Positions 2,758 to 42,240 of a stretch of DNA of 64,000 nt are shown one piece after another (the stretch's first letter is position 1; the number at the start of each line of letters is the position of its first letter). This stretch comes from a virus: IMG/VR virus record IMGVR_UViG_3300042923_000569, positions 1 through 64,000 of that record. One strand, given 5' to 3'. Under the pieces are notes generated by a model, which saw only the letters and a list, made by a program, of their open reading frames with translations, was not told where the DNA came from and did no database searches. Made by a program: the position numbers and the translations under genes.

Positions 2758-5109
2758 TTATTTTACTAGTAGGAATTGAAGGTCGGCTGAAGGTGAATCT
2801 TCATCGCCCCAATATTTGTGAAATTTCTCTGGTGTTGCTCTTTGAATAATTTCGCCATCAGAAACTACATATACTTCATGATTGGAAATTAACTTCTGCC
2901 AAAAACGAATAGCATCTTCTGAATGCAACGTATCACTCAAAATCTGTAGACCGCTTTTAATCATATCCATATACATCTGATAGACTATTCCTTTACGTCC
3001 ACGCTTTGCTGCAATAGCTTCAATGTGAAATACCTTACCAATTAACTGACCACTAACTACTGCAATCTCATTACCTGAATCGTCATACGCCATATATCCA
3101 GAACCATTTTTTGATTTAGCCACGGAAAATCCATCATGTTCAGCAACAGGGATCATTTTATCTCTTGAATTCAACTTTGCAGTTTTATCAACAAATTCAA
3201 CAGGGTCTGTATCAGCAAATGCATCAAATCGTTGTGGCATTTCTTGTAATTGATCCTTATTAATTAATTCCTGTTCATCAGCATCATCAATATCGTGCTC
3301 TAACTCTGCATTCTGAACAATATCAGCTAACCCACGCATAGAAGATTCAGCCATTGCAGACATACGTTCTTTACGGGATGCAGTACGTTCTACGTAATAA
3401 TCTAGACGCTCATCAAAATCAGCAATATCACTTGCACTTAGGAGTGCTTTAGAAATATGTCTAGGTTCAACTTCCGGTTTGTAATAACTTTCAAATAACT
3501 TGTTGGCAAAAGATTCAAAATCTTGTTCCTTCAAATTATTGAACATGTTTTCACCACCATTCATGTCGAGTGAATATTTTTTACCAGAAGATTGAACTGT
3601 CATCTTGAATTTTACACCAGCCATCTCAATTTCAAAATAACCTTCATCTTCAATATAATCATTAAATGTGATGTTCTTAGTACTATCTTGATTTAAGAAC
3701 TCTGCACTTTCAGCAAGGTTTTCAACTGCAAATAATAACCCATTTAAATTTGCATCAGGAGTTGATTCATCTTCTAACTTGTCTTTTAGCTTTAGAATAT
3801 TTCTCATATTTCCAAGATATTCAATTGGTAATGATGCCATTTGTTCTTTAGTTAGATCAATGCGAAGCTTTTTCTCATCACCTTCTTTAACTAGTAGGAA
3901 ATATTCGTCTTCGTATCTTTTTCTAAAAACTACTGAATATGATGGTTGATACCCACCATCAACAAATAATGTAAACTGTTCTGGATCTTCCATATTCACA
4001 TCATTATTGGTGGTTGGTTGCTGATCATATTCTCTCCATACTCGAAGATATAAATCCCCCATTAGGCTTTGTCCAGCTTCAGGGTAATCTAAACTCTTTT
4101 GTGAGTGGTGCCCGTCGGAAATATCCTTCTCTGATGAATCAAATTCATGATCTTCATCTTGATTTAAATCATTATCATAAAAGTTATTTACGAACTTATA
4201 AATCAATTTCATTGCCTTATTTGCACGAGCATCCTCTTTGTACTTTCTAAGTACTGAAATGATTTTGGATTGACCAAGAGTTTTCATAGCATATTGTATG
4301 GAATTGGAAATATCTTTATTTTTATTTCCAGTAAGTTCATCTTTATTATTTTCAAGCCATTGAGTTGCACGCAACGCCAAATCTTGAACTTGTGGTCCAA
4401 ATTCAACCCCACCAGCATAATATCTGTCATCACCTGTATGGGAGCCACTATAGCCTTTAGCACGCATAGTTTGCTGATCATTTGGATTCAAATTTTTTAA
4501 AACTACTGATTGAATAGTGTGTTGTAACTCATGCTGTACAGTATCCATAAAGTAATTTAGATGATCCACTATTGCATTAATATCATTACTGTTTTTTATT
4601 TCAGCATTATAATTAGGAACACCAAGATCTAACTCATTATAAGTTTCATCAGTACCACTACTACCAGCTTTATCAATGAATTGATTACTGATTTTCATAG
4701 TAATACGCATTTTATCAATAAGTTCTTTGGTCTTTGGATTTTTCTTTAAATTATCAGGTAATTGATTAAAGATCTCATCTGCATCCAATTTAAGATTAGT
4801 ACTACTGTTAACATACTTTTTCAAGTCATTTGGTGAAAGTACCGAAGCATTATATTTTCGCTGGAACCTTTTGCACCAATTCAATAGTGCAGTGGCTTTT
4901 TCAGATTGGCCTTTATTTTGTAAATCATGCTGTTTCATTACAGCCATTGTTAAGAGTACTGAACCAATAAATTTCTGTACTCTCTGTAATAATGCTGGTG
5001 GTACATTTAAAACACCAACACCTCTAGCTTCATCCAGTACCTGTTCTTCTTCAGCCGGAGGCTGGATTGCAGCATTTAAATGCTCATGAGCCTTACTTAT
5101 ATTTGGCAT
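2758..5109 (-). CDS. Putative zinc metallopeptidase-like protein with C-terminal GNAT-like domain
   Basis: A 783-residue protein of unknown function. Residues 193-197 form HELQH, a HExxH zinc-peptidase motif, followed 39 residues later by E236 in GGVEFGPQ, a possible third metal ligand. The neighbouring 528-residue protein has the same two elements at the same spacing, so the two genes are paralogues. The C-terminal ~130 residues contain IEAIAAKRGRKGIVYQMY and then SEDAIRFWQKL, resembling the acetyl-CoA-binding core of GNAT acetyltransferases. The family assignment and a metallopeptidase plus acetyltransferase fusion are inferences; I recognise no named phage homologue. AAGGA precedes the ATG. 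Confidence 0.55.
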   Translation of the reverse strand: MPNISKAHEHLNAAIQPPAEEEQVLDEARGVGVLNVPPALLQRVQKFIGSVLLTMAVMKQHDLQNKGQSEKATALLNWCKRFQRKYNASVLSPNDLKKYVNSSTNLKLDADEIFNQLPDNLKKNPKTKELIDKMRITMKISNQFIDKAGSSGTDETYNELDLGVPNYNAEIKNSNDINAIVDHLNYFMDTVQHELQHTIQSVVLKNLNPNDQQTMRAKGYSGSHTGDDRYYAGGVEFGPQVQDLALRATQWLENNKDELTGNKNKDISNSIQYAMKTLGQSKIISVLRKYKEDARANKAMKLIYKFVNNFYDNDLNQDEDHEFDSSEKDISDGHHSQKSLDYPEAGQSLMGDLYLRVWREYDQQPTTNNDVNMEDPEQFTLFVDGGYQPSYSVVFRKRYEDEYFLLVKEGDEKKLRIDLTKEQMASLPIEYLGNMRNILKLKDKLEDESTPDANLNGLLFAVENLAESAEFLNQDSTKNITFNDYIEDEGYFEIEMAGVKFKMTVQSSGKKYSLDMNGGENMFNNLKEQDFESFANKLFESYYKPEVEPRHISKALLSASDIADFDERLDYYVERTASRKERMSAMAESSMRGLADIVQNAELEHDIDDADEQELINKDQLQEMPQRFDAFADTDPVEFVDKTAKLNSRDKMIPVAEHDGFSVAKSKNGSGYMAYDDSGNEIAVVSGQLIGKVFHIEAIAAKRGRKGIVYQMYMDMIKSGLQILSDTLHSEDAIRFWQKLISNHEVYVVSDGEIIQRATPEKFHKYWGDEDSPSADLQFLLVK

Positions 5110-5110
5110 A

Positions 5111-7275
<2,165 letters not shown>

Positions 7276-38080: not shown

Positions 38081-39389
<1,309 letters not shown>

Positions 39390-39412: not shown

Positions 39413-39414
<2 letters not shown>
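39407..39414 (-). promoter_or_regulatory. Late-type octamer AATAAATA
   Basis: 30 bp before the start at 39377, overlapping the terminase stop codon. Confidence 0.45.
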
Positions 39415-41122
<1,708 letters not shown>

Positions 41123-41150
41123 CTAGTTTACCCATGCGGGTTTTCTAGAC

Positions 41151-41158
41151 TATTTAGC
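41151..41158 (-). promoter_or_regulatory. Variant late octamer GCTAAATA
   Basis: 41 bp before the terminase ATG. It shares TAAATA with the consensus. Confidence 0.4.
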
Positions 41159-41179: not shown

Positions 41180-41695
41180 TTACGATGATCTAACAGTTAC
41201 AACTCTGTTATACATAAATGCATGATTTTTAGGTATTTCATAATTATCAACAAAAATATATTCAAAATTCCTTCCACGTAATCCATTTTCTACATCTTGA
41301 ATAAAATAAATCTTAGAATTATTAGAGAAAGTGAATGTATTTGAGGTACGTTGTTCAAGAGTAATAAATCTTTGGTCTTCTGGTAGACGTTCTTGGAATT
41401 TATCAAATAATTCATTAATAATATCAAAATTATATCTAAAGATACTATATGACTTTCCACAAAGTGCCACATTAATATTTTTATTGAATAAAACTGTCCA
41501 TAATGCAGCTATCATAATTGTTGTTGTAGTTCCATCACCACGATTTGTAATAATTTCGTAATGGTCTGAATGATCCATATTAATAATATGGTTCATATCA
41601 TTCATTTGATGTTCTCTAAGACATATTTCTAGATATTCTTCTATAAAATAGAAAATAGTTTGTCTACAAATTTCATATTCTAATGCATAATTCAT
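41180..41695 (-). CDS. Degenerate terminase-ATPase-like protein
   Basis: 171 residues that align along most of their length with the ATPase domain of the adjacent large terminase. NRGDGTTTTIMIAALWTVLF (51-70) corresponds to [20 protein letters not shown], and GLRGRNFEYIFVDNYEIP corresponds to [14 protein letters not shown]. The P-loop lysine and the catalytic glutamate after the Walker B aspartate are lost, so it should not hydrolyse ATP. It sits immediately upstream of the terminase gene, where T4 has the small subunit gp16. A regulator or structural partner of the motor is inferred. Confidence 0.6.
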   Translation of the reverse strand: MNYALEYEICRQTIFYFIEEYLEICLREHQMNDMNHIINMDHSDHYEIITNRGDGTTTTIMIAALWTVLFNKNINVALCGKSYSIFRYNFDIINELFDKFQERLPEDQRFITLEQRTSNTFTFSNNSKIYFIQDVENGLRGRNFEYIFVDNYEIPKNHAFMYNRVVTVRSS

Positions 41696-41710: not shown

Positions 41711-41730
41711 GTACCGTCAAGTGACGGTAC
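41711..41730 (-). terminator. Terminator
   Basis: GTACCGTCA/TGACGGTAC stem with TTTTT on the minus strand, ending the transcript of the gene at 41740. Confidence 0.85.
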
Positions 41731-41739
41731 ATAGTACTA

Positions 41740-42239
41740 TTAAATCTGTTTTTGTGTATATGTTAGGTCCATATAAGTCTTAAATGGTCCATATAGTGCT
41801 TCAGTATTGTTTCGTTCGTTGTAAATATCGATACTTAGAGTTAAACGAGGAAGATATGTTCCATTTTCACTACGAACCAACCACCAGCCAGGATAAAAAC
41901 GCTTTTTAGAGCGTGTACTTTTCCTGAAAGTACCGATACCTAATGGATCATCATATAAAATATCAATAATAGTGTCTGTATCATTAATCGGATAGTCGCC
42001 TAATGCTTTTGATGCATTGGTCGAATCAGTCACTACAATTTCTGCATATGTGAATGTTTCATTAAGTAATTCTTCAAGTTCTGAAATAGTTTTGAATTTC
42101 AATATTCCAGTACTGGTAAAGAACTCTAAACCTGTACGTTCGGTAGTACCTTCATCATAATTAACTAGAATACCCATCTTTTCACCAGTATTAGTTTCAA
42201 CAATAAATGAATATTCAGTTAGTACTTTAAGAATTGCCA

Positions 42240-42240
<1 letters not shown>
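41740..42240 (-). CDS. Hypothetical protein
   Basis: 166 residues with an alpha/beta N-terminal part and a C-terminal part containing [20 protein letters not shown]. No family is recognised. It contacts the RNase H stop (one-base overlap at 42240), so it is co-expressed with that early gene. Confidence 0.55.

Follow-up and report, generated by a model that had tools for sequence, protein, structure and literature searches.

A pseudo-ATPase paralogue of the large terminase encoded beside terL in RaK2-like jumbo phages

Directly before the large terminase gene (terL) of a RaK2-like jumbo phage lies a gene for a 171-residue protein that is a paralogue of the ATPase domain of TerL and has lost its catalytic residues. 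The best single reading of its function, to which we give a probability of about 0.4, is that the protein is a partner of the TerL motor that performs no catalysis itself and paces or regulates packaging; a reading as a dispensable relic stands close behind.

Results

The window analysed here is a stretch of 64,000 nucleotides (positions 1–64,000 of the virus record IMGVR_UViG_3300042923_000569), and the source record comprises 357,873 bases and belongs to the RaK2-like jumbo phage group. An ORF check bore out the coordinates, strand and length of 171 residues that the original prediction had given for the gene (Table 1), its start codon being 41693–41695 and its stop codon 41180–41182. The gene occupies the slot between the PHROG 15898 gene and terL. 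PHROG 36964 spans the window terL to its end, and Terminase_6C, the nuclease model of Pfam, stays below its cut-off; the encoded TerL is 85.6–89.9% identical to the TerLs of XbC2, CBB, Kaldavass and BF over 94% of its length. We discarded the possibility that the short gene is part of a split or intein-interrupted terL, because the adjoining terL is complete and has both motifs.

Table 1. Features of the paralogue and its surroundings (positions in the window)
Feature	Position	Strand	Basis or remark
Pseudo-ATPase paralogue of TerL, 171 aa, RecA-like core only	41180..41695	-	ORF, Pfam, PHROG, AlphaFold
Dead P-loop R52-G-D-G-T-T-T; Arg and second Gly retained, Lys replaced by Thr	41522..41542	-	
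Arg140 codon, aligned with trans-acting finger R139 of Thermus phage P74-26 TerL	41276..41278	-	
Walker B Asp150-Asn151; catalytic Glu replaced by Asn	41243..41248	-	
terL, full-length large terminase, ARQMGKTT and LDEFAF intact	39413..41110	-	
GCTAAATAGTCTAGAAA, late-promoter-like element before terL	41142..41158	-	putative promoter role
AGAGGA, probable ribosome-binding site of terL	41119..41124	-	putative role, from sequence
Upstream conserved neighbour, 166 aa, PHROG 15898, function unknown; defines the paralogue slot	41740..42240	-	
Downstream conserved neighbour of terL, 429 aa, PHROG 13484 (virion structural protein)	38088..39377	-	
Terminator-like hairpin GTACCGTCACTTGACGGTAC then TTTTT, directly upstream of the paralogue	41711..41730	-	pattern match only

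The protein was matched by Pfam Terminase_6N (E = 1.5e-5; 25.2 bits, cut-off 22) and by PHROG 5989, ‘terminase large subunit’ (E = 6.5e-19). Its best phage match was GAP32_268 (33.1% identity, E = 5e-18), and its identity with CBB_274 was 32.5% (E = 2e-16). Within its own genome TerL was the sole other match at E ≤ 1 (E = 3.1e-4). Profile–profile comparison, proposed as a check with the original prediction, pointed the same way: the family profile A1 matched the TerL profile A4 over 216 columns (E = 1.9e-17), and T4 gp17 was found by the family profile A7 among PDB sequences (E = 6.9e-16).

An AlphaFold model of the paralogue was built from alignment A7 (13 family rows, TerL rows excluded), and had a pLDDT of 87 and a pTM of 0.87. 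The first structural match of this model was T4 gp17 (Z 17.9, 163 of 171 residues, rmsd 2.2–2.3). Unrelated RecA-like proteins (NAT10, helicases) matched it at Z 13 and below, so that the fold class is common but the TerLs are in the lead. The model of the long-form relative L039 (229 aa, pLDDT 83) matched T4 gp17 over 219 of 229 residues (Z 20.3) and extended past the end of the window copy. The RecA-like fold of T4-type terminase ATPases is present in the paralogue, as indicated by the Pfam and profile matches and by the AlphaFold match. The likeness to TerL noticed in the original prediction is therefore real, and the fold found is not an unrelated one; the likeness is longer than the Walker A to Walker B stretch that had been proposed, beginning near residue 4 and reaching the C-terminus. 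The C-terminal RNase H-like nuclease domain is missing: the window protein stops at the motif III strand, and the longest paralogue among 23 family rows has 281 aa.

Both active-site changes proposed earlier were confirmed. The P-loop reads RGDGTTTT, with Thr56 at the place of the Lys, and Walker B reads IFVDN, with Asn151 at the place of the catalytic Glu. Neither residue occurs in any of the 23 family rows (22 distinct), where the Lys is replaced by T, S, V, L, I or N and the Glu by N, D, S, M or L. Among the TerL control rows, 14 of 15 have the Lys and 15 of 15 the Glu, the exception for Lys being the Atu_ph07 row, which is cut at its insertion. Retained in the 23 family rows are the P-loop Gly (23), the P-loop Arg (21; missing in 121Q and PBECO4), the Walker-B Asp (20), the pocket Gln, which we take to be the adenine contact (19), and the finger Arg (19; missing in RaK2, K64-1, Phosso and Atu_ph07). 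When positions invariant in TerL (all 15 rows filled) were considered, only K106, E196 and the neighbouring A198 were kept in no paralogue; many others survive in a minority of paralogues. The paralogue shares with the ATPase domain of T4 gp17 (PDB 2o0h, 3cpe; PF03237) the RecA-like fold, the pocket Gln, the P-loop Arg and Gly, the Walker-B Asp and the Arg before Walker B, but is without the P-loop Lys, the catalytic Glu and the nuclease domain; the window copy is also without the lid region.

The place of the finger was located by profile alignment, in which the Arg of the TerL ARGL motif aligns with R139 of P74-26 TerL; as a cross-check, PDB 4znj (R139A) shows Ala exactly there. In the window copy this is Arg140, kept alongside the loss of the Lys and the Glu. 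According to PMC5727402, R139 is the trans-acting finger of P74-26 TerL and T4 also has an Arg at this place, the D6E finger is located elsewhere and the T4 finger is unconfirmed; HK97 appears to have no trans finger (PMC7617512). Retention of the P-loop Arg and of the finger Arg may serve the fold alone.

Because the fold is kept and both catalytic residues are lost, an idle motor partner is possible. Such a paralogue would be placed within the TerL ring or against it, and would give an arginine finger to the active site of a TerL neighbour, or just fill a place, without hydrolysing ATP. Packaging would thereby be paced or regulated, as by non-catalytic subunits in mixed ATPase rings. In a more specific form, the motor would be mixed, with a dedicated dead TerL twin that donates its finger, never fires and makes one place in the ring differ from the rest; we consider this form unlikely. 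The loss of the finger Arg in four phages and of the P-loop Arg in two speaks against the partner reading, as does the fact that a trans finger at this place is confirmed for P74-26 only.

The original prediction also hinted that the gene might replace the small terminase subunit (TerS), which would make the protein a substitute that brings TerL to the DNA or starts packaging. The gene does lie directly before terL, like T4 gene 16, a likeness of position alone, and a relative in the phage Phosso is annotated ‘terminase small subunit’. As had been noted, a T4-type TerS is unrecognisable in the window phage: searches with PF11053, PHROG 735 and PHROG 445 were empty there and the T4 control was positive. 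PF11053 was found in none of 12 records, and PHROG 735 and PHROG 445 were each found in 1 of 15 records, that one being the T4 control. A T4-type TerS thus went undetected (PHROG 735, 445) in 14 of 14 giant phages whether or not the paralogue was present, which weakens the idea of a substitute; since these include Munch, fENko-Kae01, Vibrio 2.275 and PA5oct, where the paralogue went undetected, the gene does not track the absence of TerS. Moreover, the best fold matches of the protein are TerL ATPase domains, its Pfam and PHROG matches include no PF11053, PHROG 735 or PHROG 445, and the Phosso and Atu_ph07 relatives are not beside terL. Replacement of the small subunit was consequently dropped as the main reading and is very improbable, though a very diverged TerS may still exist in these phages. 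One jumbo group, ‘group 2’, is reported to have a classical small subunit (PMC7824862).

Relatives were searched for the same gene pair, as the original prediction had suggested. The paralogue was found in the same slot before terL in 12 of the 14 named RaK2-like records whose terL region was viewed (GAP32, CBB, XbC2, Kaldavass, BF, SNUABM_12, Hallingskeid, 121Q, PBECO4, RaK2, K64-1 and XaC1); the slot was empty in Munch and fENko-Kae01. It was filled in eight of 11 additional IMG/VR contigs (L002, L036, L037, L039, L041, L042, L043 and L047) and empty in three (L045, L046 and L049), IMG/VR copies of named isolates being counted once only. A search of 18 records with profile A6, whose L036 row begins one codon late, gave a match separate from TerL in 12. 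These were the window phage, the records of L037 and L043, GAP32, CBB, BF, Hallingskeid, 121Q, RaK2, XaC1 and Phosso, all at E ≤ 2e-9, and Atu_ph07 at E = 1e-6; eight of the 12 matches arise partly by construction (model rows or near copies), which does not hold for Hallingskeid, XaC1, Phosso and Atu_ph07. The six records without a paralogue in this search were Munch, fENko-Kae01, Vibrio 2.275 (a partial record), PA5oct and those of L045 and L046. Given these absences, the paralogue is not generally needed for packaging, a point against a motor partner. The relatives in the rhizobial jumbo phages Phosso and Atu_ph07 sit away from terL. Atu_ph07 gp110, a candidate orthologue by its slot, was rejected because its sequence represents the N-terminal part of a split TerL; the relative of the dead family is gp627, by profile.

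In the tree, a branch with support 61/94, present in 62% of bootstrap trees, set 15 rows apart from the others; the tree has seven long branches, six of which are paralogues. The 121Q/RaK2 members matched the other paralogues at E = 7e-5 (probability 62%), partly through the tail with the promoter motif, and TerL at E = 0.0031 (probability 10%). One origin of all paralogues, including the Phosso and Atu_ph07 relatives, is not decisively supported by these results. The TerLs of RaK2, K64-1 and fENko (insertions) and other close TerLs were excluded from the tree and from the comparison of TerL-invariant positions, as were the near-copy paralogues of PBECO4, K64-1, Kaldavass, SNUABM_12, L002, L037, L039 and L042, which were restored for the 23-row residue count.

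Slot members with the full ATPase domain, including the lid region, have 226–252 aa, and the window copy is 55–81 residues shorter. This short form is common to L002, L036 and L037 and, separately, L043. The window copy paired with that of L036 (100/97) and L043 paired with the long BF form (100/99); as each short form thus has its own well-supported pair, and the partner of L043 is long, the shortening probably occurred twice. In both cases the protein stops at or shortly past the motif III strand, which leaves the RecA core in place.

This distribution bears on the reading of the paralogue as a dispensable relic, that is, a duplicated front of terL that is being lost piecewise and part of whose conservation belongs to DNA serving terL. 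We regard it as possible but rather unlikely. It is favoured by the two separate shortenings and by a gene that is long in some lineages, short in others and gone in the Munch clade; the slot is empty in Munch, fENko-Kae01, L045, L046 and L049, and the first four have no copy in a second place. Against a relic, both shortenings spare the RecA core, and the pocket residues beside the lost Lys and Glu survive in most rows.

Long-form pairs gave dN/dS values of 0.22 (GAP32/CBB, dS 1.46), 0.15 (XbC2/Kaldavass), 0.16 (XbC2/L039), 0.23 (L039/L041) and 0.27 (Kaldavass/L041), five comparisons that have rows in common; these low values also argue against a relic. The dN of the paralogue was nonetheless about 3–15 times that of TerL in five close long-form pairs. 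RaK2/K64-1 gave 0.14, on 5 differences, and the 121Q and PBECO4 paralogues differ by 2 nonsynonymous and 0 synonymous changes. Values for short-form or distant pairs, in which dS exceeds 1 and is saturated, were 0.30 (window/XaC1), 0.32 (BF/L043), 0.40 (window/L036), 0.53 (window/GAP32), 0.66 (121Q/RaK2), 0.71 (window/BF) and 0.73 (window/121Q). Between the window and L002 the paralogue shows 7 nonsynonymous changes and 1 synonymous (8 differences, one pair), compared with 0 and 8 for terL and 4 and 7 for the upstream gene. This pattern indicates constraint on the long form; for the short form, the one close pair gives no sign of it. The 7:1 ratio favours a relic and, together with the 0.30–0.73 of the distant pairs, counts against a partner.

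The window and L036 paralogues are 31% identical and both open, at a dS of 1.64 (1.02 for terL). In a neutral simulation without indels, stop codons arose in all 400 runs at 0.5, at 0.75 and at 1.0 changes per site; 5 of 400 runs remained free of them at 0.2 and 30 of 400 at 0.1. The two open frames, at about one silent change per site, therefore argue against a simple, long-standing decay of the short form; recent decay is still possible, because simulated frames sometimes stay open at 0.1–0.2 changes per site. The relic reading suits the branch of the window better than it suits the whole family.

A fast-changing protein that is patchy among relatives might also be a counter-defence decoy, a mimic of the TerL fold that would occupy Avs sensors without triggering them. 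The phage proteins sensed by Avs1–Avs4 are the large terminase, the portal or another one (PMC12931631), and the paralogue model shares the fold of the Avs3-bound TerL 8dgc (Z 15.5) without the catalytic residues. TerLs generally match 8dgc, however, so this match does not discriminate, and the long-form dN/dS values, well below 1, give no sign of an arms race. A decoy seems quite unlikely.

The end of the long paralogue overlaps DNA that probably controls terL. The hexamer TAAATA, which forms the core both of T4 late promoters and of an ATAAATA motif described for late genes of CBB, lies inside GCTAAATAGTCTAGAAA at 41151–41156 on the minus strand, at -46 of the terL ATG. It is found at -57 to -60 of terL, within the coding tail of the paralogue, in GAP32, CBB, XbC2, Kaldavass, L041, BF, Hallingskeid, 121Q and RaK2. 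In the short forms of the window, L036 and L043 it stands in the spacer, at -46 to -48 (-48 in L043), and in the paralogue-free Munch, fENko, L045 and L046 it lies at -50 to -57 in the terL spacer. No TAAATA was seen near terL in XaC1, L047, Vibrio 2.275, PA5oct or Phosso. In XaC1 and L047 it precedes the paralogue instead, at -51 and -54 respectively, which suggests joint late expression. No TAAATA-led promoter was found within 700 nt upstream of the window paralogue, and this, with the terminator-like hairpin before the gene, is a further point against a partner.

In the window, 16 of 25 TAAATA occurrences upstream of 58 ORFs (of 75, overlapping or doubtful ones being excluded) lie at -31 to -60, a raw count without shuffled control; this clustering likely marks late promoters of the window phage. 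The longer word GCTAAATAGNNTA had 2 window matches at ≤1 mismatch against 1.57 expected, and our claim is hence confined to the TAAATA core and based on where it lies. The 17-base window element has counterparts, at 1–2 mismatches, in the tails of the GAP32, CBB and BF paralogues and in those of two IMG/VR relatives, where it encodes LNSLG; the reversed pattern, used as control, gave 1 match in 15 records. The window phage has a second 2-mismatch match far off, at 275185–275201.

For the LNSLG codons, the same codon was used in 27 of 30 same-residue pairs, compared with 333 of 547 elsewhere (Fisher p = 8e-4, the pairs not being independent), as a relic with DNA serving terL would have it. N-terminal codons were equally conserved (DIFYF 27/30, FYFIE 21/21), so the promoter codons are not alone in being conserved at the DNA level. 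The DNA of the terL ribosome-binding site corresponds to the paralogue codons CTRG in full-length relatives, and these were not more conserved (17/24, p = 0.40). Since the tail carries probable control DNA of terL, conserved peptides close to its end need not reflect the protein. The short forms shed the protein tail yet retained the control DNA as noncoding sequence. It may be noted that their terL spacers (window about 41130–41141, L036 and L043) each hold a small hairpin, seen by eye, between TAAATA and the ribosome-binding site, with differing sequences (ACCC/GGGT, CTC/GAG and AACCA/TGGTT); it is perhaps a 5' leader structure.

Several observations were made on other contigs. Among L015 2953–5622, L048 2759–5428 and L021 2953–5144, the RaK2 TerL is broken at the P-loop (ARQMGK then AISNN), the Atu_ph07 TerL seems to be divided near that point, and the CBB paper reports an intein at the TerL P-loop. 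In L033/L034 (3878–4549) the terL ORF is broken just after Walker B (IDECIAGESMITV) in the manner of an intein junction, and another ORF follows. An ORF resembling, by eye, a GIY-YIG homing endonuclease lies directly before terL in L031 (1997–2899). The dead TerL relative of the Sinorhizobium phage Phosso (L060 3809–4654; 249808–250653) probably owes its small-subunit label to misannotation. The T4-like contigs L029, L030 and L032 have at 3193–3825 (+) a 210-aa TerL-like ATPase-only ORF before a full terL (3872–5761), possibly a separate case of a short ATPase gene in this position.

Discussion

The truncated-terminase gene itself is already known. A ‘truncated terminase’ was reported for RaK2-like phages in 2017; CBB_274 and GAP32_268 were called a ‘truncated large terminase’ and considered unusual (PMC5259590 and PMC7760394), and phiM12 and phiN3 were named as sharing the feature (PMC5259590). 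CBB_274 and GAP32_268 are homologous to the window copy, occupy the same slot and comprise the ATPase part only, beside a complete terL; the window copy belongs to their orthologous family and is shorter than members of their type. Their descriptions, in the available text of PMC5259590 and PMC7760394, say nothing about rates, about a loss of the catalytic residues or about a promoter within the tail. In the open-licence PMC literature we found no dead terminase twin or its promoter in print; not met there were the pseudo-ATPase pattern with the finger mostly kept, the rhizobial relatives sited apart from terL, the recurrent shortening and a promoter motif inside the tail. The short ORF of L029, L030 and L032 likewise directly precedes terL, but has an intact P-loop (CPRRRGKST) and belongs to another phage group.

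That the paralogue is a motor partner is favoured by its homology and fold, by the selective loss of the Lys and the Glu with the frame of the pocket kept, by the constraint on the long form, by the recurrent slot and by the joint late expression that the TAAATA positions in XaC1 and L047 suggest. Inactive gp17 in T4 motors in vitro provides a model for a dead subunit in a working ring: the motor can hold inactive subunits and still run, though motors so doped package worse, which also tells against a partner (PMC8589836). That inactive gp17 is a laboratory point mutant of the full protein, whereas the paralogue occurs in nature as a gene of its own and has no nuclease domain. In the branch of the window, a motor partner would have been trimmed to its RecA core, with the late-promoter motif of terL persisting in the remnant of the lost tail, and the window copy may be a reduced form or a form on its way out.

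A duplicated enzyme can drop its catalytic residues yet keep its fold, and the tail of a gene can hold the promoter motif of the next gene and outlast the protein end that it encoded. Packaging motors are usually seen as rings of one kind of subunit. An always-dead twin by the motor gene offers a natural route to ask if the packaging ring is mixed, and if the roles of its subunits are equal.
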